From Candidatus Nitrososphaera gargensis Ga9.2 (GTDB lineage: Archaea; Thermoproteota; Nitrososphaeria; Nitrososphaerales; Nitrososphaeraceae): 64,000 nt of DNA. Below are positions 8,796 to 27,053 of this stretch, in pieces. The DNA is taken from positions 1,984,001-2,048,000 of the forward strand of contig NC_018719.1 of assembly GCF_000303155.1 (NCBI RefSeq), written 5' to 3'. A program made the position numbers and the translations under genes. The notes under the pieces were generated by a model. It did no database searches. It was not told the origin of the DNA and saw nothing but the letters and a program-made list of their open reading frames with translations. Within the stretch, counting starts at the first letter, position 1, and the number at the start of each line of letters is the position of its first letter.

Positions 8796-8823
8796 ATAGT
8801 GGCAGTCACGGGCAATCACGATA

Positions 8824-9837: not shown

Positions 9838-9895
9838 TTACACAATAAATTAAGCTACATTGGCTATAACAGGTATATATCTAAAAAATTATTAA

Positions 9896-10546: not shown

Positions 10547-10662
10547 TGCCGATTTGGGCTTTGTTTAAAAAGTCATGGGTTCACGTTCGGATAGCTGTTT
10601 GAATGCATGATCATGGATTTGTGGATTACTACTTTTTACACAAAGCCGCCGATTTGCAAAAC

Positions 10663-10670
10663 CTTAAATA
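10663..10670 (+). promoter_or_regulatory. TATA box of the cytochrome oxidase cluster
   Basis: CTTAAATA, 43 bases before the first start codon of the oxidase cluster, in an otherwise mixed-composition gap. This would give a transcript leader of about 15-20 bases. The sequence is a good archaeal TATA match. Confidence 0.5.
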
Positions 10671-10712
10671 ACATTGGAAAACGAGTGATAACAGAAAAAG
10701 GGACGCGATAGA

Positions 10713-10991
10713 ATGGTTTCACATTCAGCGACAATTTTGATCCTGATTCCCGTTGTTGCCGTATTCTTTCTTGGCATCAACTCTGCTTTTGCACAGGAAG
10801 AAACCGGGCAATATATTCTGCACAGGGTAGAGATCTGGGCGCTGTTCTACAGGCTCATGGTCGTAGCATTTGTCATCGGCGCAGTGGTGATGGGCTCAAT
10901 ATTCTACGTTGTGTGGCGCTTCCGCGAGTCGCATCCAAAGAATAGAGGAGATATTACTCCTGCCAGAACAGGAGGAGGTGCTCATCACTAA
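10713..10991 (+). CDS. Cytochrome oxidase subunit II, N-terminal helix protein
   Basis: 92 residues: a signal-like helix ending SAFAQEE (about 6-28), then a second helix (about 46-70, LMVVAFVIGAVVMGSIFYVVW) and a histidine-ended tail. It resembles the first membrane helix region of CoxB separated from the rest as its own small protein. Its stop TAA overlaps the ATG of the copper subunit gene by one base, so the two are coupled. In other Thaumarchaeota subunit II is also encoded in two pieces. Confidence 0.75.
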   Translation: MVSHSATILILIPVVAVFFLGINSAFAQEETGQYILHRVEIWALFYRLMVVAFVIGAVVMGSIFYVVWRFRESHPKNRGDITPARTGGGAHH

Positions 10992-11488
10992 TGGGCCATG
11001 CAACAATTGAATGGGTGTACGTCGGAGTCGTTATCGCTATTCTCGTCTATGTTGGTGCAGACGCGTGGAACATTGAGAGACTGCTAGAACATGCTCCGGA
11101 AGATGCCGAGACCATCAAGGTCACCGGAGCGCAGTGGGTCTGGACCTTCGAATACGAAGACGGCACAAGAGAAATAGGCAAACTCCACCTAGTCAAGGGC
11201 CAACCCTACAGATTCGAGATAACATCAGTTGACGTGATACATTCGTTCAACATACCTGACTTTGCTATCATGATGGATGCAGTTCCTGGCAGGATCAACA
11301 CAATATGGCTCGTCCCCGACCAATCAGGTGAGTACCTCATACAGTGCAGAGAATATTGTGGGTTATCCCACTACCAGATGAGGGGTACGCTGATAGTCGA
11401 AGAGCCAAGCGGGGAAGAGGGAGAAGCCAACATTACCAGTGCTGCGGTAGAGGCGCCATCAAAAGGCGCTACAGCCGTGGCAAGCTAA
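10991..11488 (+). CDS. coxB: Cytochrome c oxidase subunit II, CuA domain
   Basis: 165 residues with one N-terminal helix (VGVVIAILVYVGADAW) and a periplasm-side cupredoxin domain. The dinuclear CuA ligands are all present: H84, C119, E121, C123, H127 and M130 in IQCREYCGLSHYQM, with the aromatic run QWVWTFEYEDG before them. It accepts electrons from a copper protein (plastocyanin-like in ammonia oxidisers) and passes them to heme a of subunit I. Together with the small upstream protein it makes a two-helix subunit II. Confidence 0.93.
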   Translation: MGHATIEWVYVGVVIAILVYVGADAWNIERLLEHAPEDAETIKVTGAQWVWTFEYEDGTREIGKLHLVKGQPYRFEITSVDVIHSFNIPDFAIMMDAVPGRINTIWLVPDQSGEYLIQCREYCGLSHYQMRGTLIVEEPSGEEGEANITSAAVEAPSKGATAVAS

Positions 11489-11645
11489 ATCCCCCTACTT
11501 GCTTTTACTGCCCACTAATTTTTTACAAAAGTCACTTTTCATAAACCTCCGTCATTCATCATTAGTTTTGCAGGCAATGCTAAAAACAAAATGCTTTTAT
11601 TGATATAGCATTCCATGTACGGGCAATAAGAGGGATGGATGCGAG

Positions 11646-13175
11646 TTGGTGCTAGAGGTTAAAAAACCCCGTCCAATGTGGGAGATCCTTTTTTCAACTC
11701 ACCATACTGATGTCGGCCTGCTGTACGTCTACCTGTCTCTGACTGCCTTTATCATCGGTGGCGCTTTGGCAATTGCGATACGCACAGAGCTTTTCCTGCC
11801 GGGCGATGCCATTAACATCATTCCTGACTCTAACACTTTCCATAGAATATTTACAGTGCACGGCACAAACATGCTGTTCCTGTGGCTCATCCCGTTTGCT
11901 TCCGGCATTGGCAACTACCTGATCCCGATCATGGTCAGGTACAAAGACATGGCATGGCCAAAGCTGAATGCAGTTGCGTTCTGGATGATTCCAGTTGGCA
12001 TGGCGCTCATATGGCTTGGCTTTGCAGACACCACTTGGAATGCCTACCCGCCCTATTCGATCATTAGAGCTCCCGGTCCTGCGGCAGAAATGTGGATCTT
12101 TGGCTTAAAGATACTTGGCATTTCGTCCATTCTAGGAGCGATCAACTTTATCGTGACCATCCTGAGAATGAAGCACCCAGACCTCCCTCTGATGAAGACT
12201 TCGCTCTTTGTCTGGTCAACGCTTGTAACGTCGCTCATGATAATCGTCGCAATCCCAACATTTGCAGCTGCCCTCATAATGCTGTACACAGACAGGCTCG
12301 GGGTGTCTGGCTTTTTCAACCCTGCAATGGGTGGAGACCCCATAGCGTACCAGCACCTGTTCTGGTTTACGTTCCATCCCGAAGTGTACATATTCCTCAT
12401 ACCTGCAGTGGGTATGATGTACGAGCTGATACCCAAGTTCTCAAGAAAGCCGATATTTAGCTACCAGTCAGGAGTCGCAGCGTTTGTTCTGCTTGCCATA
12501 GTGGGATTTGCATCGTGGGCACACCACATGTACGCGACAGGCATGAGCTTCACAGAAAAGACTGTATTCATGGTTGGCACTCTGGCAGCCGTGCCGGCCT
12601 CGGCCATGCACGTTTTTAACTGGATAGCCACAATGTGGGGCGGCAGGATCAAGTTCGCAGCCCCCATGAGCTTTGCGGTAGGTGGCCTGGTGCTGTTCTT
12701 CTACGCAGGAGCAGGAGGTATCGTCAACACAGCCATGCCGCTTGACTTCCTTACACATGACAGCTACTGGGTAGTCGGTCACTTCCACCTGTTCGTCATG
12801 GGCCTAGTCACATTCGCGTTCATTGGATTCATCTACTACATGTTCCCCTTCATAACAGGCAGGATGTACAGCGAAAGGGCAGCGATGGTGCAGTTCTGGC
12901 TCATGTTTGTAGGAGTGTCGATGATATTCTTGACACAGCACGTGCTAGGACTATACGGGCAGCCAAGGCGTGTGTTCGACTATGTGCCGGTGCAGCCACT
13001 GATCATAATGAACCAGATATCGACGGTCGGTGCTTGGATAACGGCCGCCGGTGCAGCCATATTTGTGTGGAACCTGATAAAGAGCACAGTCTCGGGCAAA
13101 CCTGCCAAGATGGACGACCCGTTTGCAATCGGAGAGCAGTACTACGACTACACACGGCGCGAGCCGCACCACTAA
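11646..13175 (+). CDS. coxA: Cytochrome c oxidase subunit I
   Basis: 509 residues with about twelve membrane helices. The heme a ligand His is in FTVHGTNMLFLW; CuB ligands are in FHPEVYIFLIP (His-Tyr cross-link pair) and SWAHHMYATG; the heme a3/a histidines are in VVGHFHLFVMG. It reduces O2 to water and pumps protons in the membrane: the terminal oxidase of aerobic ammonia oxidation. Start is TTG at 11646 or GTG at 11649. A second A/T-rich promoter-like stretch (CTTTTATTGATATAG, about 11593-11607) lies between coxB and this gene, so it may have its own transcript. Confidence 0.95.
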   Translation: MVLEVKKPRPMWEILFSTHHTDVGLLYVYLSLTAFIIGGALAIAIRTELFLPGDAINIIPDSNTFHRIFTVHGTNMLFLWLIPFASGIGNYLIPIMVRYKDMAWPKLNAVAFWMIPVGMALIWLGFADTTWNAYPPYSIIRAPGPAAEMWIFGLKILGISSILGAINFIVTILRMKHPDLPLMKTSLFVWSTLVTSLMIIVAIPTFAAALIMLYTDRLGVSGFFNPAMGGDPIAYQHLFWFTFHPEVYIFLIPAVGMMYELIPKFSRKPIFSYQSGVAAFVLLAIVGFASWAHHMYATGMSFTEKTVFMVGTLAAVPASAMHVFNWIATMWGGRIKFAAPMSFAVGGLVLFFYAGAGGIVNTAMPLDFLTHDSYWVVGHFHLFVMGLVTFAFIGFIYYMFPFITGRMYSERAAMVQFWLMFVGVSMIFLTQHVLGLYGQPRRVFDYVPVQPLIIMNQISTVGAWITAAGAAIFVWNLIKSTVSGKPAKMDDPFAIGEQYYDYTRREPHH

Positions 13176-13193
13176 AGGAGGAAACAATGGAAA

Positions 13194-14066
13194 ATGTCGC
13201 ATGACGAACGTGAGCATGAAAAGGAACCAATGATCCTGACCTCCGGAAGGCGCATGGCTAAAGGTCTTGCCATCGTGGTTATCACTCTGGCTATAGGGGC
13301 AGCGATCATTGTGCCATTCTTTGACGAAATGTTCTCCATCCCGCCGCCTGTGACCCAATTACGGCAGCCGACGCCTCCGCCAAGTGAAGGAGAAGAGCCG
13401 CAACCAGGAGGAGCTACAACTATTCAGATCCCAAGCGGAGCCTCTGTGCAGGGAAATCCAAGCTACGAGCCAGCTAATGCCGAAGTCCCAATGGGTAGCG
13501 AAGTAGTATGGGATAATACCGATAGCGTTCCTCACACTGCAACATCGGGGACCGGACAGAATGATCCCACATCAGGAGACCTATTTGATACAAGCATTAT
13601 CAATCCCAATGAAAAATCTGATAGCGTTGTGCTAGAAGGAGTAAGCGAAGGCGACGTTATCGACTACTATTGCACATTGCATCCATATATGACTGCTCAG
13701 CTAACCATAGTGGCAGCCGGAGAAGGCAGTAGCGGTGGTGCCCAAACAGGCGGCGAAGGAGGAGCAGCAGGATCTACGATAAATATCCTCAGTGGCTCGT
13801 CTGTCCAAGGCAACCCTGACTTTGACCCTGACGGGCTGACCGCGAAGGTAGGCGACAAGATAAACGTGGTCAACCAAGACAATGTTCCGCATACCGTAAC
13901 ATCGGGGACTGGACAAAACGATCCTAACAAAGGTCAGGCATTTGATACGAATATCATAATGGGCGGGCAGTCTGCCACGATATCGTTGGCCGAGGTCGAG
14001 CCTGGACAGTATGACTACTTCTGCACAATCCATCCATATATGACGGGCAAGCTCACAGTAGAGTAG
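13194..14066 (+). CDS. Membrane-anchored double cupredoxin (plastocyanin-like)
   Basis: 290 residues: an N-terminal anchor helix (about 23-43), a proline-rich linker, and two homologous blue-copper domains (about 72-175 and 195-290). Each has the His ligand in a VPHTxTSGTGQNDP loop and the C-x4-H-x2-M cluster (YYCTLHPYMTAQL; YFCTIHPYMTGKL). Each domain should bind one type 1 copper and transfer single electrons outside the membrane, most likely to CuA of coxB. The domains are close copies, pointing to an internal duplication. A purine-rich GGAGGAAAC sequence precedes the start. Confidence 0.9.
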   Translation: MSHDEREHEKEPMILTSGRRMAKGLAIVVITLAIGAAIIVPFFDEMFSIPPPVTQLRQPTPPPSEGEEPQPGGATTIQIPSGASVQGNPSYEPANAEVPMGSEVVWDNTDSVPHTATSGTGQNDPTSGDLFDTSIINPNEKSDSVVLEGVSEGDVIDYYCTLHPYMTAQLTIVAAGEGSSGGAQTGGEGGAAGSTINILSGSSVQGNPDFDPDGLTAKVGDKINVVNQDNVPHTVTSGTGQNDPNKGQAFDTNIIMGGQSATISLAEVEPGQYDYFCTIHPYMTGKLTVE

Positions 14067-14074
14067 TAGCATAT

Positions 14075-14521
14075 ATGCTGCTGCAAGCCCTCTCTTTTTC
14101 TACCCTTTTTGTACTATTCTCACTGATATTTATCGGGGGATATGTCAGCGCCTCCGGAGTCGGCCTCACCTGCCCGGACTGGCCGCTCTGCCCACAGGGC
14201 CTGCTCCCGCATGAGGACTTTATCATCGAATACATCCACAGGTCGGTGGCTGCCACGACTGGCGTGCTGGTGGTCGCTACAATGGCATTTACCCTAAAAT
14301 CAAAAGCTGCACCAAAGAGTATAAAGATCACATCAATTATTGCGGCCGGTGCAGTGATCGGCCAGATAGCGCTTGGTGCGATTGTCATTGTGGAGCGGCT
14401 GCACGCTGTACTTGTCACGACGCATCTGGGGCTTGGCATCGTGCTCTTTTCCATGGTCCTTATGACCGCCCTTTACGCATACAGGCTTGAAGGCAAAAAG
14501 GCGCTGGCCAAGGCACAGTAA
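14075..14521 (+). CDS. ctaA: Heme A synthase, half-size (CtaA/Cox15-like)
   Basis: 148 residues, four membrane helices. The first helix ends in GGYVSASGVGLTCPDWPLCP, the extracellular cysteine-pair motif of CtaA; heme-binding histidines are in EYIHRSVAATTG, RLHAVLV and TTHLGLG. Bacterial CtaA has eight helices; archaeal forms with four helices are known and probably dimerise. It oxidises the heme O methyl group to make heme A for coxA. It starts nine bases after the cupredoxin stop. Confidence 0.85.
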   Translation: MLLQALSFSTLFVLFSLIFIGGYVSASGVGLTCPDWPLCPQGLLPHEDFIIEYIHRSVAATTGVLVVATMAFTLKSKAAPKSIKITSIIAAGAVIGQIALGAIVIVERLHAVLVTTHLGLGIVLFSMVLMTALYAYRLEGKKALAKAQ

Positions 14522-14549
14522 TATACGGGCAGGGCAAAAAATTATCCTA

Positions 14550-15596
14550 ATGATGAACGTCCCGGCCCTACTACTATTGCTACTGGCGCTTTCGTTGCTT
14601 GTTGTTTCGGCAGCGCCGGCCTATGCCCACTTTGACCATCTTACCCACTATAACAGTAGGGGCGGAGGGGTCGGGCAATATTACGTGTACGAAGCACTTG
14701 AGCCGGATTACGCAGCTCCGGGCGAGCCCACCGCCATAATGTTCAGCGTACAGGACTATGATGGGCGCGACACGTACAACATTGAAACGATGGTCGAGAT
14801 CTATACCTCTTCCGGTGAGCGCATCAAAGCGTTCCCTTGGACAAAGCAAGATGTCGGCGATTTCCAAGTGTTTTACACTTTTCCACATGTGGGCAGCTAT
14901 CAGATCGTTCTTAGCATAGCAGATGGGCCGGTCAACACCAACGCGATAGACCTGCCGAGAAGCACACTTGGCAGCACGGCCGGCTGCAACTGCGAGCGGC
15001 TGATATTCAATGTCGCAGTTTCCCAAGGCTTTGGCTCAATCTACAACTCGACCCTTGGAGGGGCGGTGTTCAGCTCGCTTGCGATCTTTGGCGCAGTGCT
15101 TGGCCTGACGTACTGGAGTAAGAAAAAGAGCGGCAAGTTTGCCAGTGCGCCCGGCGACACCATGAGGTACATCGTGACCTTGGCGGCAATCGCCGGCGGT
15201 CTAGTACATTTTGCAGTATACTCGGGACACGCCTCGCTCCGGCTCGAATACAGCATATTCCTTATAGTCGCAGGCGGCATGCAGGTGACCTACGGCATAC
15301 TCTACACCCTCCTGACGCTGACTGGGTCTACTACCGGCAGGGCAAGGCCGCACGAGCACTACCGCAAGACAGTAGCGGTCAACCTGTTTGGACTGATCGG
15401 GACTGCAGTGCTGTTGGGGCTGTACGCCTATTCCGTAACGCTACCTCCTCCTCTTTCGCCCACAGGCCAGCCAGAAGATGTTGACTTGGCAGGCATACTG
15501 GCAAAGGCAGTAGAGGTATTCACCCTGATCGGCATCGTCTACCTGATGAGGCTTGAAAAGCGCCGGCTGCAGACCTTCCTGAAGGAACACGCATAA
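14550..15596 (+). CDS. Exported membrane protein of the oxidase cluster
   Basis: About 349 residues from the ATG pair at 14550/14553, chosen because a clean signal peptide follows (NVPALLLLLLALSLLVVSA, cut near APAYAHFDH). Residues 25-165 form an external beta-rich domain with a C-x-C (AGCNCERL). Then come four helices (about 175-195, 215-240, 245-270, 290-310) and one near the end. No family name is known to me. Position directly after ctaA suggests a role in oxidase assembly, copper or heme delivery; this is inference. Confidence 0.7.
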   Translation: MMNVPALLLLLLALSLLVVSAAPAYAHFDHLTHYNSRGGGVGQYYVYEALEPDYAAPGEPTAIMFSVQDYDGRDTYNIETMVEIYTSSGERIKAFPWTKQDVGDFQVFYTFPHVGSYQIVLSIADGPVNTNAIDLPRSTLGSTAGCNCERLIFNVAVSQGFGSIYNSTLGGAVFSSLAIFGAVLGLTYWSKKKSGKFASAPGDTMRYIVTLAAIAGGLVHFAVYSGHASLRLEYSIFLIVAGGMQVTYGILYTLLTLTGSTTGRARPHEHYRKTVAVNLFGLIGTAVLLGLYAYSVTLPPPLSPTGQPEDVDLAGILAKAVEVFTLIGIVYLMRLEKRRLQTFLKEHA

Positions 15597-15676
15597 TAAT
15601 AACAAAATCTTGCAGAAAATTCTGTGGCGAGAGCCAGTAAAACATAAAACACCAAGAGCGCGACCCATATACCCAT

Positions 15677-16630
15677 ATGGCCTGGAAAGTAATGATGCCG
15701 AAAAAGATAATGTTCGGCGAAAATGCTGCAAAGGAATTCCCGTATCCGAAAAATTCTCTTGTTATCACCACTACTACGCCTGACATTTACAACAAGTGGC
15801 TAGACTATATGGGGATCAAGAACTATGAAGTGTACGACAAGGTCACGCCCGACCCTGCGATAGAGACAGTAGAGGCGATAAAGAAGCAGTATGAAGGCAA
15901 GAACATTGGCGCGTACATCGGCCTTGGTGGCGGGAGCTCGATGGACGTATGCAAGTACCTGAGCAAGCTAACCGGCATTCCCAAGATCCTGATCCCGACG
16001 ACATTTGGGACTGGAGCAGAGATGACCACCTATGCAGTCATTAGCTTTGACCACAAGAAAAAGCTCCTGCAGGACGAGGCGTTCCTTGCAGACGCGGCCA
16101 TCGTTGATCCATACTTTTTGCCCGGCACCCCCTTTAACATCCTGCGCAACTCTGCCTGCGACGCTGCTGCCCAAGCATCTGAAGGCTATGACAGCAAGGC
16201 CGGCAACCCGTTCACACAGTTCTTTTGTAAGGAAGCTTTTGATATCCTGTATGACGCGATAATGAACGACAAGCACCACCTGCTGCCGTATGGCGCGATG
16301 CTATCTGGCATTGGCTTTGGCAACTCGTCGACCACGCTTGGCCACGCGCTCTCGTATGTATTCTCTAATGAGGGAGTGCCACACGGCTATGCACTATCGT
16401 CCTGCACTACGGTCGCGCACAAGTTCAACAAGTCGATCTACTACAAGCGCTTCAAGGAAATCGCGCAAAAGCTAAAGTTCGAGCCGCTCAAGCTAAAGCA
16501 GCCGCTGGATCAGGCTGCAGACGTTATCATGCCAGACCGCGGCCACCTTGACAACAACCCAATACCTGTTAGCAAGCAGGACATCATACAATGCCTTGAC
16601 GAAATAGTGAACTCTAACCCGCTGGCCTAA
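15677..16630 (+). CDS. Iron-type alcohol dehydrogenase (semialdehyde reductase candidate)
   Basis: 317 residues of the group III metal-dependent dehydrogenase family, shorter than the usual 380. Visible: the nucleotide loop GLGGGSSMDVCKYL, IPTTFGTGAEMTTYAVI, and metal ligands Asp in ACDAAAQASEG, His in LGHALSYVF and His in GVPHGYALSS. In ammonia-oxidising Thaumarchaeota close relatives reduce succinic or malonic semialdehyde in the carbon-fixing 3-hydroxypropionate/4-hydroxybutyrate cycle. Which substrate this copy uses cannot be read from sequence. The gene is alone, after the oxidase block. Confidence 0.85.
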   Translation: MAWKVMMPKKIMFGENAAKEFPYPKNSLVITTTTPDIYNKWLDYMGIKNYEVYDKVTPDPAIETVEAIKKQYEGKNIGAYIGLGGGSSMDVCKYLSKLTGIPKILIPTTFGTGAEMTTYAVISFDHKKKLLQDEAFLADAAIVDPYFLPGTPFNILRNSACDAAAQASEGYDSKAGNPFTQFFCKEAFDILYDAIMNDKHHLLPYGAMLSGIGFGNSSTTLGHALSYVFSNEGVPHGYALSSCTTVAHKFNKSIYYKRFKEIAQKLKFEPLKLKQPLDQAADVIMPDRGHLDNNPIPVSKQDIIQCLDEIVNSNPLA

Positions 16631-16694
16631 AAGCGGGCCCCCTTCTTCTTACCCTCTTTTTTTGCAATACACTGCAAGCGCCACCTTTCAAAAC

Positions 16695-16702
16695 CTTTAA
16701 AT
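16695..16702 (+). promoter_or_regulatory. TATA box of the SRPBCC gene
   Basis: CTTTAAAT, centred about 28 bases before the ATG at 16727, so transcription should start at or next to the start codon (leaderless). Confidence 0.5.
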
Positions 16703-16726
16703 TCAGTTCACCTGACTTTATCCCCG

Positions 16727-17320
16727 ATGACCGTTATCCAAAAGAGCATAGAAATTAACGCTCCAGTAAGTGAGGTGTTCACCTATTTTGCAAGGCCAGA
16801 GCACATGGCGGACCAGTTCCCGGAGAACATGGGCCTGAGCGTTATCCCGGTCGAAGTCAAGAACGGCTTTGGGGTTGGCACTATTTTCAGGATAAGCGGA
16901 GATTTTGACGGCAAAAAGCTCGAATGGGACTGTGAGACCATCGACTATGTCCCGATGCGCAAGATTGTTGCCAAGATGATCGAGGGCCCATTCAAGAGCT
17001 GGCAGATAACAGTCGATTTTGAAGAGCTGGGCGAAAAGAAGAGCAGGACCGGCATGACGGTGGAATACGACATGCCGATGGGCCCGCTTGGTAGCTTTAT
17101 GGACAAGGTTAAGCTGAAAAAGATTGCAGAGCGCGGAATGGAAAACGGTCTCTACCGCGTTAAGGCGCTGCTTGAAGGCACGGGCTCGATACCGGTCTAC
17201 ATTACTCTGGACGCCTACAGGCACATCCTGAAGGAAAAGGAAAAGCTTAACTGCTCTGTCTCTGAGGCGATTGTAAAGATCATCCAGCAGAGCCAACAGC
17301 AACATACGGTCAAGGCCTAA
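16727..17320 (+). CDS. SRPBCC protein with C-terminal helical tail
   Basis: 197 residues. Residues 1-145 are an SRPBCC domain (SIEINAPVSEVFTYFARPEH, EWDCETIDYVPMRKIV, KSWQITVDFEEL, a long C-terminal helix). Residues 152-197 are a separate unit (IPVYITLDAYRHILKEKEKL, then VSEAIVKIIQQ) with the strand-helix-helix pattern of ribbon-helix-helix or antitoxin-like proteins. A ligand-binding domain joined to a possible DNA-binding tail would make a one-component sensor. The tail assignment is tentative. Confidence 0.75.
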   Translation: MTVIQKSIEINAPVSEVFTYFARPEHMADQFPENMGLSVIPVEVKNGFGVGTIFRISGDFDGKKLEWDCETIDYVPMRKIVAKMIEGPFKSWQITVDFEELGEKKSRTGMTVEYDMPMGPLGSFMDKVKLKKIAERGMENGLYRVKALLEGTGSIPVYITLDAYRHILKEKEKLNCSVSEAIVKIIQQSQQQHTVKA

Positions 17321-18058
17321 GCTTTCTTCTTTTCTCTTTTTGACGTATCTACATGTTTGATTGATGATGCATTCCAGCAAATGATGCTGTCAATCAATTC
17401 TTGGGATGTTAAAACTCTCTGGCCGAAGACCTGTGACATATCCTGCAACGGACATCTAAGATGTCAATATCATCAATTGCAGTGTAACATGAATTATCTG
17501 CATTTGATTGCCTTTCTATGGCCAAGATGAGGTAGACTATCTTAGTGATATCGATGATAATGGCACGAATATAATAGCGAATAATTGGGTCGCGCTTCGC
17601 AAGAAGTAGACTAAATTATTCTATATGTTGTTTCATAATATATCAGTTGAAAACGCCAGATATAACCTTGACAACGCTCTACTATCATAGCCGCTATGCA
17701 TTAATCAATTATTTTCTGCGGATTCTGGGATTGTAAGTTACCAAAAGGAATCTGCGTGTCTTTTATTGTCCTTCTGCGTTTTGATTCACCACTGCCTACC
17801 AACCTGCCTAAATAGCCGATATTGATGATGGCCTTAATTCTCTGTTTTTACGCGTTTGGTACCATTTGTCGCATATTAGATAATAACTCGCAATTAACGT
17901 TTTACCATTGGAGTTTGCGAGATTGTGCAAACAGCAATTATCCCCGATTTACAAATTTGTAATAGTTGCAAACAAATTGCCAAGTGGTTTTTACAAAGTT
18001 TTTATAGACCCTATCAAGCAATGCAATAGTAGGTAAAGTATTTTCTTCTCCCTCCCTA
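17321..18058. other. AT-rich gap with gene remnant and palindrome
   Basis: No intact gene. On the plus strand about 17527-17611 reads DEVDYLSDIDDNGTN then IIANNWVALRKK and a stop, which looks like the end of a lost protein-coding gene. An 8-bp inverted repeat TTGATTGA/TCAATCAA lies at 17357-17364 and 17390-17397 just after the SRPBCC gene and could be its terminator or an operator. A perfect palindrome TTACAAATTTGTAA is at 17949-17962, followed by a TATA-like TTTTTATAG near 17998. This gap marks the left edge of the AT-rich accessory region. Confidence 0.45.
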
Positions 18059-18775
18059 GGCGCTGTTAACTTAGGGTAATCTGTATAGCTAGGACTGCCC
18101 TAGCTTTTCATTGCCATATGAGAAAGAGGACAGACCCAGCTATAATCAGATATGGGCTGTACTTGTGTATTTTAATTCTAGGAGCTTCAGGCTGGCAGCC
18201 AGATCGCTATCGCCAATAAAGAAAAGAAGCCACGTTGCTGTCTGGAAATGGGTACAGAAATACGCGGATTGTGCAGACAGGTTCATGACAGATATAGACG
18301 GTCAGTCAGAGCAATATTTGTAGACGAGACCCTGCTTCAGATAGATGGCCATGATTATTGGCTGTGGATTGCGTACGAACCTGCAATAGATACATGTTTG
18401 ATGATGCATCTGTCTCGTGAGAGGACAATTTTTGTATGCTACCGGTTCTTTTTGCAATTGAGGCAGAGATATGGAAGGAAGCCGGTGTTTTTACTGACGG
18501 TGGTCTGTGGTACGGGTTGGCATGCAGGTGGCTCAGACTACGCCATTATATGTATATGGCACAGAATTGAAGAACATCATGGAGCGATTCATACAGAATA
18601 TCAAGGACAGGACCGAGTGTTTCGATGACCATTTTCCATGTAGGAAGGAGAATTGCAATAGGCAGCATGTGTGTGGAACTGGCTCAGGTTATTCATGCTG
18701 TATCTGCATTCAGGTATGGATAGGGTGCGATTTATGTCATTTCTGGCTAGAGATGGTGGTTAAGTTAACGGAGCC
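18059..18775 (+). mobile_element. Decayed IS6-family-like insertion sequence
   Basis: 717 bp with terminal inverted repeats: GGCGCTGTTAACTTA on the left and, inverted, GGCTCCGTTAACTTA on the right (13 of 15 match). The ends begin GGCxCTGTT-like as in IS6 elements. Inside, three reading frames spell one DDE transposase: RPSYNQIWAVLVYFNSRSF, then VDETLLQIDGHDYWLWIAYE (first Asp), then TDGGLWYGLACRWLR and NIMERFIQNIKDRTE (third acidic residue). At least two frameshifts separate them, so it is inactive. The flanking eight bases differ, so no target duplication remains. Confidence 0.8.
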
Positions 18776-18793
18776 ATAAGACTTCTAGTACCG

Positions 18794-18801
18794 TTTAAAT
18801 A
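18794..18801 (+). promoter_or_regulatory. TATA box of tRNA-Lys
   Basis: TTTAAATA, about 29 bases before the first base of the tRNA, the normal archaeal spacing. Confidence 0.55.
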
Positions 18802-18826
18802 TCGCTCGATCCAGCAAATTTTCTGC

Positions 18827-18918
18827 GGGTTCGTAGCTCAGCCAGGCAGAGCGTCTGGCTCTTAACCAGTCAGTCATTCTGGGTTAAAATGTCGAGGGTC
18901 CGAATCCCTCCGAACCCG
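18827..18918 (+). tRNA. tRNA-Lys (CTT) with 18-base insertion
   Basis: Acceptor stem GGGTTCG/CGAACCC, D arm GTAGCTCAGCCAGGCAGAGC, anticodon loop CTCTTAA with anticodon CTT at 18861-18863, T arm GAGGGTCCGAATCCCTC. Total 92 bases; removing 18870-18887 leaves a normal 74-base tRNA with a five-pair anticodon stem and a five-base variable loop. The insertion is thus a probable non-canonical intron at the 3' side of the anticodon stem. TTAACCAG before it pairs with CTGGGTTAA at its end (one bulged G), a hairpin that competes with the anticodon stem and may shape the splice site. Followed at once by an integrase fragment. Confidence 0.85.
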
Positions 18919-18971
18919 CTTCAATATCGTCCCTTTTGAGTGGATTCTTTCAAAAAAATAGGTGATAGAGA

Positions 18972-19625
18972 GTGAATCCAACAGGAAACGTGGCAACGGG
19001 AACAATCCCGACCACGGTTGGGACGACAACTGACCCTTGGATGCTGTTTCTTTACGCGCTCAAAGCGCCAGCAACCAAGGAGAAGTACATTCAGCGGCTG
19101 ACAAAATTCCTTGACTTTTTGGGCTACCAAGGGACCAAGGAAGAAAAGGCTCGCGCCATTGCAGCAAGAGCAAAAGCAGACCTAAACTATGGCTTCAATT
19201 CTGTCCTGAAGTTTTTCCAGGTAAAGCGCGAGCAGATAGACCGCAAGGAGACCGCCATTGGAACCGTCAGAAATTATGCAAAAAGCATCAAGCTATTTTG
19301 CGACATGGCTGACCTGCAGATACCTCGGGCAAAGATCACACGCGGCCTGCCAAGGGAAAAACGGTTTGCAGACGACAGAGCACCGACGCTGCAATACCTA
19401 TCCAATGTCGCACTTACAGCTGATCACGGTTTTATCAGGTTCCACGGAAGAAACAAAGGCTATTGGTACAACTGTTCGTACGACGAGCAAGAGCTGAAAC
19501 CTTGGGTATCAAAGGTAAACAAGATCAGAAAAGATCCGGAGGCGAAGCGTCTTCGAATTTATTTCAATAACCACTACTGGGCAAAAGCAGTAGCCAACGC
19601 TCTAGAGTTCAAGGAGATACACTGA
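18972..19625 (+). pseudogene. Chimera: integrase N-domain joined to DUF72 tail
   Basis: An uninterrupted 217-codon frame made of two unrelated parts. Residues about 20-144 are the core-binding domain of an archaeal tyrosine recombinase (LFLYALKAPATKEKYIQRL, FNSVLKFFQVKREQID, GTVRNYAKSIKLFCDM, DDRAPTLQYLS). At about residue 145 (near 19404) it switches to the C-terminal part of a DUF72/YecE protein (DHGFIRFHGRNKGYWYN, ELKPW, RLRIYFNNHYWAKAVANALE). No recombinase catalytic Arg/His/Tyr remains. A further piece of the DUF72 end (GDTLTPEQQQAKNRINGVL) follows one frame away to a stop near 19708. The position 53 bases after tRNA-Lys fits a relic of an element integrated at the tRNA. Confidence 0.75.
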
Positions 19626-19709
19626 CGCCCGAACAGCAACAAGCAAAGAACAGAATCAATGGAGTACTTGCAGAAATCAGGAGCCAGAGAAAGCTACAGG
19701 ATTTCTAAA

Positions 19710-20963
19710 AGTGTTAACGGGACTTGTCTGCTCTTTGGAAATGATAGAAGACAATACGTGTCTGTATCGAGCACCAGTCAGGCCTTGACAAGCTCTATAA
19801 GAGCGTAATGTAAGCTGAGCTTTCCTGATGGAAACTTGCCAGAATTACGTAAAATGCTTAGGAGATTGCAAGCCAAATGGGATTGTGGCAACGTTAGTTC
19901 ACCTAATGAAATAGTCAAGTAAAACAGGCAGATCCAAGAAGTAAAGAGACAGATTCAGGCTCTGGAACGCTAGCTATTTTTTATAGCTTTGAATGCCGTT
20001 ATTTTAGAGCTCCTTCAAAGAACAAAAAAGAAAACATCAAGGGCTTGAAAAGAGTCGCTTACCACATTGAAAAACATGCAGAATTTGTCCGATGGTTAGA
20101 GAGGATTACAACAAAGCATTAAGATTGACATTAGAAACAATTGCCAAACAAGCCCTACTCACCCGGGATTTAGAGCTGATAAAACTGGCTTTCGGGCTTG
20201 ATGGTATTCTAGCCTTTGCTCCAGTGGCATCTGTAGGCTGACAAGGCATAAAATGGGTTTAGTGTCTTGTTATCAAACATTGGGTTCATGCCCTATAGTA
20301 GCCATTAGAATATGCGACAGTAGACGAATGCTTCTAAGGTGATGCCATGCTTGCTGTCAAGAGTGAAGCTGTGGACCTATCTCTTGGCAGAAGCGCAATA
20401 GACTTTATTGATTCGCTGATGCCGCAACCTTCACAGGTCGTAAAACTACGGCCTGAAAGGTTAGTAGCGCAAAAGAAGCATTCATGACAGATGACAAAGT
20501 ACGGCTGATGTGTCTCCAAGGTAGGTGCTAATTTTAGCGGCATGGCGAAGAATGACTTGACATAACACCTATAAAAAACAATAGAGAGCTTTCTATAAGA
20601 CTTATCCTAGCTGGTTTAGATAACTGAAAAAAAGCATGGTTAAGGGAAGAAGTTGTTGGCTCTCCCGAGCATCCCAAACTTCCAATGTACGATGTGTGTA
20701 CCTGCCGCTAAAGTAGTAGTACAGTGAGGTCAGTTGTTGAATGACAATAACGCCGCTCCTCTTCTGTCTTACTGCGGCGCGCATCGATCCTACGAGTTAA
20801 AATGCTTATGGCGTATTTGGCGCGTATTATGTAGTTTCCAGCCTTATGGAAGATAACAAATGCCAAGCAATATCGCGGCCTTGTTGCCATAGCCTGCAGT
20901 GCTTTTTACAATACCCTAAAATGCCTTTTTTATTTTCGCTGTTCTGGTGCTACAAACTCTTGC
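19710..20963. other. Degenerate AT-rich stretch without intact genes
   Basis: About 1.25 kb with many stops in all frames. Short coding-like pieces remain on the plus strand: NIKGLKRVAYHIEKHAEF near 20037, and DAMLAVKSEAVDLSLGRSA with QVVKLRPERLVAQKKHS near 20341-20484. None could be assigned to a family with confidence. The pattern is that of several genes in late decay after an integration or deletion event next to the tRNA-Lys gene. Confidence 0.5.
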
Positions 20964-21195
20964 CTATTTGGTTGTACACTTTGACAAATTTGTGACACTT
21001 GTTAGTAGTCTTGAATGTCTGTATGTCTTTTTCATATTCAAGCAGACCGTTTTGTACAAGCACTCTTAAGTATTCCTTTAGCTGCTGGTATGATAGGATG
21101 CTTTGTACATTATTTTTGTCTTGGTTGCGCCACTACCATTTGCAGCTTCTAGGATCTGAGCGGTTATGCCACCACTTATAGATCTTATTCGCAGG
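20964..21195 (-). pseudogene. Winged-helix regulator pseudogene
   Basis: The minus strand reads GITAQILEAANGSGATKTKI and MYKAS, then after a frame break QLKEYLRVLVQNGLLEYE and FKTTNKCHKFVKVYNQI to a TAG at 20964. It aligns along its length with the intact winged-helix proteins at 37530, 49271 and (more distantly) 43528. The start is missing (no ATG before the first conserved part) and one frameshift lies near 21108. A dead paralog of that regulator family. Confidence 0.75.
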
Positions 21196-21286
21196 ACGGT
21201 AGATATGTATATCTCGTCATTGCCTTGACAAGTCAGCCAGCTAAAGTGCTTGATGTCAAAGCGTATTATTCTGATGAGATATAGTG

Positions 21287-21559
21287 TTAGCGCTCTTCCT
21301 CTATTACTCCAAATGATAGCTTAACACAAGCCTTGTATCTGGTAATTCTGCCTGTGTTAGGATCAATTTCTGCTGTCATATCTTTAATCTTTATCCCATG
21401 GATATTGTGTATTGTCTTTTTGGCTTCATCTAATGCAACTCGTGCAGCATCCTCCCATCCTATGTTAGAAACTCCAACCAGCTCGACAATCTTGGCAACT
21501 GCAGGCGTTCTTTTTGTTATCGTCTCTTCTGTTCTGGCAGCTATTGTGGCTGTTGTCAT
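21287..21559 (-). CDS. Dodecin-like flavin-binding protein
   Basis: 90 residues. After about 20 extra N-terminal residues the dodecin domain is clear: KIVELVGVSNIGWEDAARVA, LDEAKKTIHNIHGIKI, AEIDPNTGRITRYKACVKLS. Dodecins are hollow 12-subunit shells that store flavins (FMN, riboflavin or lumichrome in archaea) and protect against light damage. The tryptophan that stacks with the flavin is the W in IGWEDA. It sits beside a thiamine-binding protein gene and a flavin/F420-type oxidoreductase on the same strand. Confidence 0.88.
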   Translation of the reverse strand: MTTATIAARTEETITKRTPAVAKIVELVGVSNIGWEDAARVALDEAKKTIHNIHGIKIKDMTAEIDPNTGRITRYKACVKLSFGVIEEER

Positions 21560-21647
21560 ATATCTTATGGTGTATTACATTGTATTTAAGAGAAAAGACG
21601 CATAGCCAATCGATGTTAGAGCCCACCATGCAACCATATTATTATTA

Positions 21648-21968
21648 CTAACTAACCTTTGCTTTAACTGATTGAACTTTCTCTTCCATTGTATTTGGCT
21701 TATCGAGCCTCTCATCAATCCGTATTGTTGATATTACGCGCTTTACTCCAGAAGATTTGGCTGAATTGTGGGCAATGCGTATTGCCTGCAAGATATCATC
21801 TAGATTGTCTGATTCAATCTGGGTGCTCATTGGGGTAAGTGTTACTTTCAAATTCTGGATGCTACGGATGGCATTGTAGGCCGCTGCTACTTCCTTTCCC
21901 ATACTAGTATCAGAGGTGCCAATTGGCTCTATGCTGATTTCAGCGTCAACTATTGGCAAGTTGTTCAT
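21648..21968 (-). CDS. MTH1187-family thiamine-binding protein
   Basis: 106 residues of the MTH1187/YkoF-like family (formerly DUF77): AEISIEPIGTSDTSMGKEV, LKVTLTPMSTQIES, LDDILQAIRIAHNSAKSSG, RVISTIRIDERLDKP and a closing KVQSVKAKV. Members bind thiamine or related small molecules in the cytosol and probably buffer them. Located between dodecin and an LLM oxidoreductase, all leftward with gaps under 100 bases, so a shared transcript is likely. Confidence 0.85.
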   Translation of the reverse strand: MNNLPIVDAEISIEPIGTSDTSMGKEVAAAYNAIRSIQNLKVTLTPMSTQIESDNLDDILQAIRIAHNSAKSSGVKRVISTIRIDERLDKPNTMEEKVQSVKAKVS

Positions 21969-22031
21969 ATATCAGCATGGTAAATTTAATAATTAAAGAA
22001 TATCATGAGAAAAGGTGGGAACTATTTCTAA

Positions 22032-22934
22032 CTAATTATGAACAAATGATGGCATGATTTGCAGAGCAAAATCAGACATAGATTTGATGAAGCTTTCAAA
22101 TGGAAACGGAATTATCACGTACTTGCAACCATACTCTTCAGCTTGCTCGATGCCTTTTGCATACATCCTAGAATCATATTGACTTGAAGACTTGTCGCTG
22201 CTCATAATGGTTCTTTGTACCTGCTCAAAAGCGATAGTAGGTATTGCTGCAAATGATATCTTGTTTTCTCTAGAATGGCGGCGTGTTTCTTCAAGGACTA
22301 TTGCTTTTGCATCTTCAAATTCTCTATCAATCCAAGGAGGGATTAAGCAAATATCCGCATATCTGCCAGCCAGACGAAGCATCCTAGCGCCCAAGCCACC
22401 AAACATCAGAAGAGGATGTGGCTTTTGAACTGGTTTTGGGTCAAGCACTGCATTATCCGCCAAGTAATATTTTCCATTAAAGCTAACCTTTGATGATGTT
22501 CCTCCCTTATCGCTTTGCCAGAGTTTAAGTATGAGCTCCAAACCCTCTTTTGTCTTATCAACACGCACATTTGGCTCATCCCATTGGCTGTATCCTTTGA
22601 ACTCCGTCTTTGACCATCCTGCACCAACTCCTAGAATAACTCTGCCATTAGAGATGACATCGAGTGTGGCAACCATTTTGGCAAGAATAGAGGGAGGCCT
22701 GAGCGGAATGGGCGTTACCACCGTTCCTAGCTGGATTTTCTCTGTTTTGGCTGCAAGATAAGTAAGAGTAATCCAAGTATCCAAGGTAGAATTGCCATTT
22801 GGATAGCCACTCCACATGTAGTGGTCAGGTATCACAAAACCCCAGTATCCTAGCTTATCAGCCTCAGGAGCTGCCCTTTGTATTAGCTGCCATTGGCGAT
22901 GCCAGTTTCCCCATAGTGCTACAATGAATTTCAT
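22032..22934 (-). CDS. LLM-class oxidoreductase (F420- or FMN-dependent)
   Basis: 300 residues with the luciferase-like barrel: ALWGNWHRQWQLIQRAAPEA, GFVIPDHYMWSGYP, IQLGTVVTPIPLRPPSILAK, VISNGRVILGVGAGWSKTEF and LLMFGGLGARMLRLAGRYAD. These are the standard strand and cofactor motifs of the family. With npdG in the same window, F420 is the likelier cofactor. Substrate unknown. Probably first gene of a leftward unit with the thiamine-binding and dodecin genes. Confidence 0.88.
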   Translation of the reverse strand: MKFIVALWGNWHRQWQLIQRAAPEADKLGYWGFVIPDHYMWSGYPNGNSTLDTWITLTYLAAKTEKIQLGTVVTPIPLRPPSILAKMVATLDVISNGRVILGVGAGWSKTEFKGYSQWDEPNVRVDKTKEGLELILKLWQSDKGGTSSKVSFNGKYYLADNAVLDPKPVQKPHPLLMFGGLGARMLRLAGRYADICLIPPWIDREFEDAKAIVLEETRRHSRENKISFAAIPTIAFEQVQRTIMSSDKSSSQYDSRMYAKGIEQAEEYGCKYVIIPFPFESFIKSMSDFALQIMPSFVHN

Positions 22935-23176
22935 AGTCAGTCTATGACACTAGAGACACATTATCGGACAAAAAGAGTGTAGCAAGAAGAAATTGTAAGC
23001 AACCACCTTGCATCTTCGATTCCAGGCAACAACTTGCAGAGATTGGGAAAGAATTTCGTTTGCAAGTCGTACCCATATTCTTTAGTAAAGTTATCCGTGT
23101 CAATTGATAAAGTAATGGTTGCAAATTAGTAAATTGTTTAATTTCTTAAGAGCTAGAAAAATTAGCAGCAAGTAGT

Positions 23177-23695
23177 TTGAGCAGCCAAGCACAACAACGA
23201 CCTCAGGAAGTAAAGGAGCGAGGACGCAACACCTCTGCAAGATTCAAAAAAATACTTGTAGCTGTAGACGGATCAGAAGAGTCATTCAAGGCTGCGCAGT
23301 ATGCTATAGAACTGGCAAAGAAGGAACGAGAAAGAGCACAGTTGATTGTCTTGAGTGTTAATGAAACCCCTTCTTCCCTGATTAGCACAATAGAGCCATC
23401 AGCATTAGAAAGATGGAGGGAGCGGCTTAAGGCACAGTCAGAAACATTCTATGAGAGAATAGTAAGCACATACGGACTAGATATAGAAGATAATAGCGAA
23501 CTGCAATTAAGGGCAGAAATGATTGACAGTGCCAAATCAGCATACGTTGCAATAGTTGAATATGCAGAAAAAGAAGATGTTGACCTGATTGTACTAGGTA
23601 CAAAAGGCAAGACTGGGCTCAAACGAATACTGCTTGGCAGCGTAGCATTGGGCGTAGTTACTCATGCTACTTGTCCTGTGCTGGTTGTCAAGTAG
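23177..23695 (+). CDS. Universal stress protein (UspA family)
   Basis: 172 residues. A 22-residue lead precedes the Usp fold: KKILVAVDGSEESFKAAQYA, IVLSVNE, and the ATP loop GTKGKTGLKRILLGSVALGV ending THATCPVLVVK, which keeps the G-x2-G-x9-G(S) nucleotide motif. An ATP-binding member is expected. TTG start at 23177 after an A/T-rich gap. It heads a stress set with Hsp20 and thioredoxin downstream. Confidence 0.9.
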   Translation: MSSQAQQRPQEVKERGRNTSARFKKILVAVDGSEESFKAAQYAIELAKKERERAQLIVLSVNETPSSLISTIEPSALERWRERLKAQSETFYERIVSTYGLDIEDNSELQLRAEMIDSAKSAYVAIVEYAEKEDVDLIVLGTKGKTGLKRILLGSVALGVVTHATCPVLVVK

Positions 23696-23829
23696 GAAGG
23701 CAGAGGGTTCTTCTTATGTAATGAAGTGATAAGCTAGAAATCTCTTGGCCTATAAGAATCCGACAAATGCAGTCAAAGATCTATCTTCAACCTTTAATTC
23801 TGTTAAGGTCCGGTCATACATTACACAAT

Positions 23830-24445
23830 ATGAGCATCAGAGATAGAGACATCGATGAATGGTTCCGGCGTTGGTCCCCATGGGGATTGGGAAGAAAGAC
23901 AGCAGGTGAAAGTATCTTTAGAGAATTTGAAGAAATGAGAAGAGATATGGAAAGGATGTTTGAAGAAACTGTACGCGACATTGACAGGGTTCCTAAAGAC
24001 CTAATAAGAGAATATGAGACCCCGACAGGTGGCAGGGTAAGAGAGGTAGGTCCACTGGTTTATGGCTACTCTGTAACGATAGGACCAGACGGAAAGCCAA
24101 AGGGAAGAGAATTTGGCAATGTAAGATCACTTGGAGGTGGTGTCGCAGTGCCGGCACTGGCTGCAGAGAGGGAACCACTGGCAGATGTCATAACTACAGA
24201 CAAAGATGTCAAAGTAACGATAGAAATGCCTGGCATTTCAAAAAATGACGTAAAAATAAACGCGTATGATGGCGCGGTTGAAGTATCGACAACAGAGGCT
24301 GCCCCGAGGAAAATATCATCGTGTAATTGACCTGCCGTCAGATACGGATATTGAAACTGCCAAATCAAAATATACAAATGGAATACTTGAAATAACATTT
24401 AACAAGAAAGCCAAGCCAAAGGGAAGAGAAATTAAGATCGATTAA
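23830..24445 (+). pseudogene. Hsp20 small heat-shock protein, frameshifted
   Basis: Begins at ATG 23830 (SIRDRDIDEWFRRWSPWG), with a tryptophan/charged N-terminus and an alpha-crystallin domain (ADVITTDKDVKVTIEMPGIS, KINAYDGAVEVST). In the run GGAAAATATC near 24308-24313 one extra A breaks the frame; the first frame stops at 24330. One frame on, the domain ends normally: YHRVIDLPSDTDIETAKSKY, GILEITFNKKAKPKG, to TAA at 24445. The total length is one base over a multiple of three. The fault is in an A run, so sequence error is possible. Six bases before a thioredoxin gene. Confidence 0.8.
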
Positions 24446-24450
24446 GGCAC

Positions 24451-24829
24451 ATGGTAACACCATATACTCCTACGACTGTAGTAGACATCAAAACTATAGA
24501 AGAATGGGACGCTCTAATATTAGATAAGCAAATAGTAACAGCAGCAATGTTTTGGGCCGACTAGTGTCCACACTGCCAGAGATTAAAGCCGATATTTGAA
24601 TTGATGCCACAGAAATTTCCACAAATAAGATTTGCAAAAGTCAATGTAGATCAAAAGCCAGAGATTGCTTCAAGGTATGGCATACAAAGCATTCCATTAG
24701 TGAATTTTTTGCAAAGGAAATGAGATTGGCGAAATCACAAGTTATAGGCAAAAGGACGATCTACAAAGTGAGATAAAAAAGATATCGGAAAATGCTGAGT
24801 GGTGTCTTGTGCACGCCACATCAAGGTAA
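24451..24829 (+). pseudogene. Thioredoxin with stop in the active site
   Basis: MVTPYTPTTVVDIKTIEEWD, then AAMFWAD, a TAG at 24562-24564 where the WCxxC tryptophan belongs, then CPHCQRLKPIFELMPQK, RFAKVNVDQKPEIASRYGIQ and SIPLVNF. In a T run near 24707-24712 the frame shifts by one base, after which KGNEIGEITSYRQKDDLQ and EIKKISENAEW continue to TAA 24829. Two independent lesions (Trp to amber, frameshift) make it a pseudogene unless the reads are wrong. It directly follows hsp20. Confidence 0.82.
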
Positions 24830-24917
24830 AAATTGTTAAATTAGTATTTTAGCCTGTTTTTGCAACTTTTTTATCCAATTCTGTGCAGTGGCGGCCAAGG
24901 TGAAATAGCACACGGAT

Positions 24918-25622
24918 ATGAAGACCATTCAATCTGATCGCCATATGGGCAAGAGTATTGGATTTGGCGCCATAGGAGGATTTGTTGCTGGATTGGTGAT
25001 GGCTCCTTTCTTTATGCTGACTGCAATGATGGCAGGCATGCCTACAAATACTATCCCCATAGCAATTGGATTGGCCTTTGGTGCTTTTCAGGATAATAAT
25101 GCAATTATGATAGGGTCTGGATTGCACATGCTCACAAGCACCCTCATCGGCATAATATTTGGAGCTGTAACTGCTGCCGCAAGCAAGCTGAGGATAACGA
25201 GCTTTAGAAAAGGTGTTGGAGAAGGGCTTGCAACTGGGATGATTGCATTTGCCGTGCTGTTCATTCCGATAAGCATGTTTGTCATGTCGCCAGTGCTTGT
25301 ACAAATGATGATGCAGATGGATCTATCACTAACACAACAGCAAGCTATGAGCGTGTTGCAGCAAGGAATTCCATTGATGATTGGCATAGGTATCCTTGAA
25401 CATTTGGTGTATGGTGCTGTGCTTGGGGCTGTGACATCGGCACTTATGTTAAAAGTAAAAAGAGTTAGGAAAGAACAAGAATATACAGCAAGACTTGGCA
25501 CTGGCACTACTAAAGAAGAGGGAACAACCAACTATGAATGTATGGCATGTAATCGTAAATTTGGCAGCTTGGAAGAAATTAATGACCACATTAAAACAGT
25601 GCACCATAGGATAGCGGCATGA
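24918..25622 (+). CDS. Membrane protein with C-terminal C2H2 zinc finger
   Basis: 234 residues. Residues 1-185 hold about five hydrophobic segments (FGAIGGFVAGLVMAPFFML; IPIAIGLAFGAF; MLTSTLIGIIFGAVTAA; GMIAFAVLFIPISMFVM; GILEHLVYGAVLGAVTSAL). After a charged linker comes a classic finger, YECMACNRKFGSLEEINDH, closing IKTVHH (C-x2-C-x12-H-x4-H). The membrane part resembles no family I can name. The finger is of the same type as in the mini-proteins elsewhere in the region, suggesting it recruits a protein or DNA to the membrane. Confidence 0.8.
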   Translation: MKTIQSDRHMGKSIGFGAIGGFVAGLVMAPFFMLTAMMAGMPTNTIPIAIGLAFGAFQDNNAIMIGSGLHMLTSTLIGIIFGAVTAAASKLRITSFRKGVGEGLATGMIAFAVLFIPISMFVMSPVLVQMMMQMDLSLTQQQAMSVLQQGIPLMIGIGILEHLVYGAVLGAVTSALMLKVKRVRKEQEYTARLGTGTTKEEGTTNYECMACNRKFGSLEEINDHIKTVHHRIAA

Positions 25623-25784
25623 TGGCCTTCTCCGACTTTTGCTCCTCTTTAGCTTCTGATCTTTGGGTCTGCTTGCGGAATCTTTCCACAGCTTTTCCTC
25701 TCTTCAAATGGGCGAACGAGAGAAATAATTTAGGGACGTGCTGAAAGAAAGACAAGATCTGGGCTTATCACTTAGTTTCCGAGA

Positions 25785-25979
25785 CTATGTTTTGCTTCTT
25801 ATCTCTGTCCGCCTGTTCCTTCCAGCTTCTCTTAGAGATTCCTTATCTTCGGCTCTGGCTTCGCCGCCTTTCTTACCTATCTCGCTGTAAAACTCAACCT
25901 CTCTCTTCGGCAACTTTCTCGCCGCCCTTGCGTCCAGCCTCTGCCAAGCTTTCTGGATCTTGAGCTCTTGCCTTTCCAC
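25785..25979 (-). CDS. Small KGG-motif protein
   Basis: 64 residues, highly charged. FYSEIGKKGGEARAEDKESL resembles the GKKGG stress-repeat motif of small general stress proteins (con-10/YciG type), here once. The N-terminal half is basic and helical (RLDARAARKLPKREVE). Function unknown; no co-directional partner. Confidence 0.5.
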   Translation of the reverse strand: MERQELKIQKAWQRLDARAARKLPKREVEFYSEIGKKGGEARAEDKESLREAGRNRRTEIRSKT

Positions 25980-26338
25980 CTTTTCTAGCTACTCTTTCCT
26001 TTCAAACCTCTTTTTTCTGATGACATATACCGGCTATGCGGCAAGGTATTAATTGACTTTAGTAGATGAAGAAGTCGAACTGCAAATTTAGAACAACAGG
26101 CTGTTGACCGATCTCAGATTGTAAATCAAAAAGAGCTAGGCTGAAAAAGGTCTCTGTTTATTGTTGGTTGATGGTTTTGTATCGGGCATCTCGAGATGTG
26201 CTTTCCTAACCGAATAGAGTACAAGGCCACCATTGATATTTTCTATTATTTATTCTTGGAAGCAAAAGCAATAGAAAGAGGTATGCATGTGCATACAACT
26301 CTTATTAGCTATGCTCAGCTGGTAAATTTTGAGACAAA
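25980..26338. other. AT-rich gap, nothing recognised
   Basis: No convincing gene. A short segment AGGCTGAAAAAG near 26140 also occurs near 35759, perhaps shared regulatory or decayed sequence. The end of the gap is the upstream region of a 49-residue finger-like gene. Confidence 0.35.
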
Positions 26339-26488
26339 ATGGCTGCTACATATAGACCAAAAACGTTTACATGCAAAAAAGACGGCAAGCAGTTCGACAG
26401 TTTGGCTGACCTGCAGAAGCATATTACTATTGAGCATTTGCAAAAAGGAGAGGTTACTTCGCCAGACGCAATAACAAAAATAGATTAA
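26339..26488 (+). CDS. Degenerate C2H2 finger mini-protein
   Basis: 49 residues (MAATYRPKTFTC..., ending DAITKID). The core FTCKKDGKQFDSLADLQKH and ITIEH has the finger's shape, Phe and Leu core positions and both histidines, but the second cysteine is replaced by Asp (C-x2-D). Metal binding would be weaker or lost. It belongs to the mini-finger family of this region. A longer frame running through the same bases is out of register with the finger and is probably not used. Confidence 0.6.
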   Translation: MAATYRPKTFTCKKDGKQFDSLADLQKHITIEHLQKGEVTSPDAITKID

Positions 26489-26747
26489 ACACCGCCTTGT
26501 TTAACTATAGAAGCTACTTCTAACTTATATTTATGAATCTTCTTGCTGCTCCTTTGTATGTATTGTCACATTGTCTCAGGCTCATCCTTTAACTTGTTGT
26601 CAAACGTGGGTCCTTGTTTTCTTTCGACAGCCGATATTGACAGTGCTAATGTAAATTGTATATTTGTAACTGCGGTTATTGCCGATCGTCCAAAAAAGGG
26701 CAAGAGACAAAGGTAAAAGAAAAAAGAGTTGGACACTTCTTTTCTAA

Positions 26748-26903
26748 CTAGTCTGCATTCTCAATGTACATCCTGTTTCCTATTCTGTAGTGGATCTCGT
26801 CTATGTAGTACGCAGTGTCGACTACTGGTGACGACAGGTTTGCGCCACACACCGGAACTCCTTCTGTCTCTTGTTGCTCCTCTTCTTCTATTAAGAGACT
26901 CAT
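26748..26903 (-). CDS. Small hypothetical protein
   Basis: 51 residues from ATG 26903: an acidic start (SLLIEEEEQQETEG), then VPVCGANLSSPVVDTAYYID and EIHYRIGNRMYIENAD. The composition and clean ending suggest a real gene; one cysteine only. No family recognised. It precedes the PHA synthase stop region on the same strand, separated by about 4 kb of transcription direction break, so no operon is implied. Confidence 0.45.
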   Translation of the reverse strand: MSLLIEEEEQQETEGVPVCGANLSSPVVDTAYYIDEIHYRIGNRMYIENAD

Positions 26904-27053
26904 TGGTAGCATGAATCACATCAAATGATAAGAACGTGTTGTATCAATGTACAAGAAAAGTTTTAGATTGTTTTGACTTTTTAGATAAAGATTGGGAGTC
27001 CTGCAGAGTTCATCATCTATTGCTCGCAGCATGTGATAGAAAACTCTATATCT

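Follow-up and report, generated by a model that had tools for sequence, protein, structure and literature searches.

Directly behind a tRNA-Lys gene of Candidatus Nitrososphaera gargensis Ga9.2 lies an open reading frame (ORF) that begins as a tyrosine integrase and ends as a DUF72 protein, and the question is whether such an arrangement is a real fused gene or the scar of a lost stretch of DNA. The locus was analyzed within a stretch of 64,000 nucleotides of the chromosome (contig NC_018719.1, positions 1,984,001 to 2,048,000), referred to here as the window; coordinates are those of the window unless a chromosomal position is given. An earlier note, made from the sequence alone, had described one open frame at 18827-19708 that switched from integrase to DUF72 at about 19404, and had interpreted it as a deletion scar next to a tRNA.

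Structure of the ORF and its junction

The ORF runs on the forward strand from a GTG start at 18972 to a TGA stop at 19623-19625 (18972-19625, 217 aa), so the region 18827-19708 is not a single open frame, and the remainder of the DUF72 tail lies in another one. The ORF comprises the N-terminal third of an integrase and then the final third of a DUF72 protein, with the first 139 aa on the integrase side and the last 80 aa corresponding to the DUF72 C-terminal end. Searched separately, as the earlier note had proposed, both halves proved to have real homologs, at 48 to 51% identity for the integrase (aa 12-146) and 71 to 73% for DUF72.

The integrase part (18972-19388, forward strand) matches integrases of close relatives with 48% identity over aa 15-146 of a 399-aa frame (E 4.3e-40) and those of genomes of the family with 51% over aa 12-145 (E 4.0e-42), while Pfam recognizes it below the cut-off (E 0.016 within the ORF, 0.0047 when the part is submitted alone). 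Tyrosine integrases depend on the catalytic residues R, HxxR, and Y. In the 399-aa integrase of one relative (L013), the catalytic Pfam match covers aa 135-322 (25.3 bits, under the 27.1 cut-off), and the stump therefore retains the N-terminal region while lacking the catalytic one entirely. What is left is an N-terminal domain homologous to those of tRNA-targeting thaumarchaeal tyrosine integrases, with no catalytic domain in the ORF.

The DUF72 part (19389-19622, forward strand) is in frame with the integrase part and is assigned to PF01904 with 51.1 bits (E 2.4e-13, cut-off 25.3) over profile positions 142-216 of 217, which means that the 75 C-terminal positions are kept and about two-thirds of the domain is missing. 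It is 73% identical to a 305-aa frame in genome G004 and 71% identical to one in G012, which the start of the contig truncates. With the tail of the latter as the tblastn query, the remainder of the DUF72 tail was located past the ORF stop, in another frame, at 19613-19708 on the forward strand (match at 19613-19705, 42% over 31 aa, E 0.006). This displaced tail is a further lesion. To its right, 19709-21286 contains no recognized genes, only stop-to-stop fragments of at most 90 aa, and integrase and DUF72 queries gave no credible match there.

The junction lies at 19386-19391 (forward strand), where the integrase motif APTL meets the DUF72 motif LQYLS, and reads ADDRAPTLQYLSNV according to a codon comparison with relatives and the alignment. 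The integrases of relatives mostly have ADDRxPT at this point, followed by a hydrophobic residue and then EE or DE, and integrase homology of the ORF ends at aa 139-140. The closest DUF72 proteins have DSPDPxLxxLS at the junction site; the second DUF72 copy of the same genome has DPKLQYLSNV, and its blastn match to the window starts at 19390. Because the integrase, DUF72, and own-paralog comparisons meet at a leucine codon common to both sides, we place the junction there and not at 19404; the switch itself is real.

Homologs with the same two-part architecture across many species would point to a real fused gene. We found no match spanning both halves outside the window among the matches listed, whether in close genomes (61 searched, 44 with matches, E <= 0.001), in genomes of the family (70 searched, 43 with matches, E <= 1e-20), or in a phylum sample (398 genomes, 23 with matches, E <= 1e-12, with part of the first-look candidates scored in a few genomes). 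The three sets overlap and all include the own genome. Each listed match outside the window either stops no later than aa 154 or begins no earlier than aa 133. Pattern scans with the ORF, which reach close relatives only, matched 3 viral and 23 genome-contig stretches, none of them confirmed as a relative. A strain in the predeletion state, with intact integrase, intact DUF72 gene, and the element between them, such as the earlier note had proposed to look for, was not found among the genomes searched.

The missing parts were looked for as well. The 399-aa integrase of the relative, used as the query against the own genome, matched the N-terminal part in the window (aa 10-140) and two paralogs only, one of 421 aa at 1325 kb and another near 1666 kb in two nearby pieces; no unpaired C-terminal half was found in the genome, nor does the 64-kb window contain the missing half of the integrase. 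The first two-thirds of the DUF72 gene were likewise not found in the window. In the own genome, the DUF72 protein of a relative matched, besides the C-terminal part in the window, a copy at 605.8 kb that is of full length but has broken frames, a likewise broken N-terminal piece of this subfamily at 304.5 kb that reaches about aa 89, and three more distant copies. That the missing halves were not found fits a loss of the intervening sequence better than a simple exchange.

The copies at 2159.9 kb and 605.8 kb were considered as the missing N-terminal halves displaced by a reciprocal inversion and were rejected, as both extend into the C-terminal part and have broken frames. Two further broken copies of the DUF72 subfamily in the own genome (L126, about 1410-1675; L002, 1374-2187) suggest that it is being lost there. 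Another DUF72 copy, at 1034 kb (L004, 1441-3276), belongs to a 611-aa ORF that combines DUF72 with a Y-family polymerase, with DUF72, PF00817, and PF11799 all above the cut-off; DUF72 genes near polB2 are mentioned in a published report (PMC11791011). We also rejected DUF72 as a regular cargo of this integrase family, as four integrases used as tblastn queries had no match in 16 DUF72 loci of 2 to 10 kb (13 from relatives, some overlapping, and 3 from the own genome, a set without L038-L041 and the DUF72 loci of the phylum search). The converse search, with a DUF72 query in 17 integrase loci, gave one weak match (L032), to a more distant DUF72 copy upstream of the integrase.

tRNA-Lys as the presumed insertion site

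The earlier observation that the frame adjoins a tRNA was borne out. The gene is a tRNA-Lys(CTT) of 93 nt at 18827-18919 on the forward strand (ARAGORN; Rfam tRNA, 54 bits), the presumed integration target, and its 3' end precedes the ORF by 52 nt on the same strand (18919 to 18972), with the tRNA sequence outside the ORF. No intron was flagged here, while one was flagged at position 39 in the copies of relatives, and the gene probably carries an intron. Among 17 integrase loci from the close-genome and phylum searches, scanned with intron detection, 11 have a same-strand tRNA 3' end 49 to 118 nt before the integrase match; the tRNA names in these loci are approximate, one being an implausible type. 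Without intron detection, a same-strand tRNA was seen before the integrase in 7 of the 14 loci scanned. As a control, a tRNA within 700 nt before the frame was found in none of 11 DUF72 loci of relatives, some of whose frames are near a contig end. Genome G002 has the tRNA-Lys(CTT) followed by window-like sequence (87% over 18794-18977, tRNA included) and an integrase start identical in 10 of 10 aa, after which its contig ends.

According to Krupovic et al. 2019 (PMC6563490), 39 of 68 thaumarchaeal elements are inserted in tRNA genes, ten of which contain introns, and the att sites have a median of 17 bp and a minimum of 8; a review (PMC8371274) names tRNA 3' ends as the preferred targets of archaeal tyrosine recombinases. 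In the window, neither a pattern search nor ungapped scoring revealed a repeat of the tRNA-Lys 3' end that would resemble an attR above chance. With the 46 nt at the tRNA 3' end as the query, the best score was 9 against maxima of 9 to 12 for 30 shuffled queries, a test in which att sites no longer than about 10 nt are indistinguishable from chance, and which would miss short sites of the kind reported from thaumarchaea. The longest exact downstream copy of any part of the tRNA is 13 nt (18875-18887, at 50556), which is outside the island described below and does not derive from the tRNA 3' end.

The earlier note had suggested looking for a repeat of the tRNA 3' end elsewhere on the chromosome. 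There is such an orphan copy, of 22 nt with one mismatch, 575 kb away at chromosomal positions 2578152-2578173 (L043, 1501-1522), and a scan with intron detection showed no tRNA around it. It sits between genes that look glyA-like and M32-peptidase-like from their translations; both have matches in 3 of the 6 genomes searched (G015, G008, and G018), where they are widely separated. We tried this copy as a relocated attR and discarded it, since comparing these neighborhoods of the three relatives with the window and with the surroundings of the orphan did not connect it with the island, or with the event at tRNA-Lys. A similar orphan tRNA-Lys end occurs in L045 of genome G051.

The island adjoining the scar

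An island of about 23.8 kb (18920-42752), defined by synteny and composition as the region from tRNA-Lys to the right-hand neighbors of close relatives, still adjoins the scar, a fact that limits the deletion reading; the integrase stump clearly stands at its left end. Its G+C content is 0.42 (19709-42752), compared with 0.498 in 1-17330 and 0.515 in 42753-64000, and that of 19392-19708 (0.44) is nearer to the island than to the flanks, which is weak evidence on the origin of the DUF72 part. The left neighbor gene (16727-17320) has a match in all 11 of the relatives' stretches listed, every one of which also has the tRNA-Lys. The right-flank genes of the window are present in 5 of 10 relatives' stretches, and none was seen in the other five fetched. 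In the close relatives G003, G017, and G009, the right flank begins 172, 755, and 965 nt behind the tRNA, respectively, and the site is thus near empty. In G008 and G014 it begins about 5.7 and 7.7 kb behind the tRNA, and shorter stretches occupy the place of the island. To the left of the tRNA, a 1.45-kb insertion (17331-18782), absent from all eight relatives' stretches that cover both sides, carries the decayed remains of an IS240/IS6-like transposase (PF13610, E 1.7e-5, 25.4 bits, with the cut-off at 27).

Pfam was run on ten ORFs, nine of them from the island, and PHROGs on eight, five of them from the island; no mobile-element hallmark appeared in these nine and five island ORFs. The genes recognized in this AT-rich island are of host type; those identified by Pfam are dodecin, thiamine-binding, luciferase-like, ferredoxin, and response-regulator genes, together with an alpha/beta-hydrolase gene that matches PhaC_N below the cut-off; one more gene, named from reading only, is presumably thermosome-like. 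That the island exists elsewhere as one contiguous block was rejected, as the DNA matches of 20800-40700 in ten relatives are scattered, among the matches listed. The strongest of these fall in the thermosome-like gene (ten relatives, among the matches listed, with part of the first-look candidates scored). ARAGORN also calls a tRNA of unknown type at 31137-31208, which is not among the Rfam hits at the gathering score and is probably a false call.

Origin of the junction

Taken together, the locus is very probably the dead relic of a tRNA-targeting element in which a deletion fused the integrase gene to a DUF72 gene. The position of the stump, its homology, and the presence of the same integrase family behind tRNAs elsewhere are plain observations. 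In this reading, a thaumarchaeal integrative element of the type that targets tRNAs would have inserted at the 3' end of tRNA-Lys(CTT), its integrase gene starting right behind the tRNA, and a later deletion would have taken the catalytic two-thirds of the integrase, the sequence beyond it, and the first two-thirds of a DUF72 gene pointing the same way, with the stumps joined in frame at the leucine codon common to both parents. The earlier reading as a deletion scar is supported in this respect; the junction is visible in the DNA, and we infer the deletion from the two halves that are missing. The predicted fused product has neither a recombinase active site nor a complete DUF72 domain and most likely does nothing, and this end of the element would no longer be able to excise by its own integrase. 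Counted against the relic reading are the lack of an attR-like repeat in the window, of a hallmark in the scanned island ORFs, and of a predeletion strain among the genomes searched, as well as the N-terminal DUF72 fragment at 304.5 kb, as the two DUF72 pieces could stem from a larger rearrangement.

Such a rearrangement would make the junction the breakpoint of an inversion, translocation, or distant recombination instead of a local deletion, an origin that we consider unlikely. The fragment at 304.5 kb, from the same subfamily, speaks for it, as does the orphan tRNA-Lys 3' end at 2578152, lying between genes that are far apart in three relatives, but neither the reciprocal product (a DUF72 N-terminal part joined to an integrase C-terminal part) nor an unpaired integrase C-terminal half was found in the genome, and the fragment stops at about aa 89 of the 305-aa reference, and is followed by another ORF, whereas the junction corresponds to about aa 196. 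It seems quite improbable that the copies of the tRNA-Lys 3' end (18892-18919 and 2578152) served as recombination points for large rearrangements that moved an AT-rich block of host type behind tRNA-Lys, with the integrase-DUF72 junction as a by-product.

A true working fusion of an integrase DNA-binding domain with a piece of DUF72 is highly improbable, even though the frame is open across the junction: by simple reasoning, a random join is in frame one-third of the time, only the last third of DUF72 is present and its tail is frameshifted, the architecture has no counterpart in the other genomes searched, among the matches listed, and the pattern scans, within their reach of close relatives, confirmed none. 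There is equally little reason to suspect an assembly error that joined two loci. The right side of the junction has no support from any relative examined, but the genome is a single contig of 2,833,868 bases, G002 backs the left side as far as the integrase start, and the sequence continues rightward without gaps.

A deletion relic of this sort is a scar of a known kind and ordinary, and its value extends little beyond local annotation: annotation should treat the ORF as a pseudogene at one end of an integrated element, not as a fused protein, and should add tRNA-Lys(CTT) to the insertion sites used in this genus. Integrases of the SSV (suicidal) type are split on integration, as the att site is inside the gene and the N- and C-terminal parts come to lie at the two ends of the element. 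Our locus resembles them in that the N-terminal integrase part alone is left beside a tRNA, although here the tRNA sequence is outside the ORF and the C-terminal partner was not found in the genome. Compared with the DUF72 family (PF01904), the ORF retains 75 C-terminal profile positions and 71 to 73% identity to homologs from two congeneric genomes, whereas the first two-thirds are absent and the tail is frameshifted. The locus can also be compared with the tRNA-integrated thaumarchaeal elements described in PMC6563490; despite an integrase reduced to a stump, no attR found, and no element genes among the scanned ORFs, the locus shares with them a tyrosine integrase gene directly behind the tRNA 3' end and near-empty sites in close relatives.
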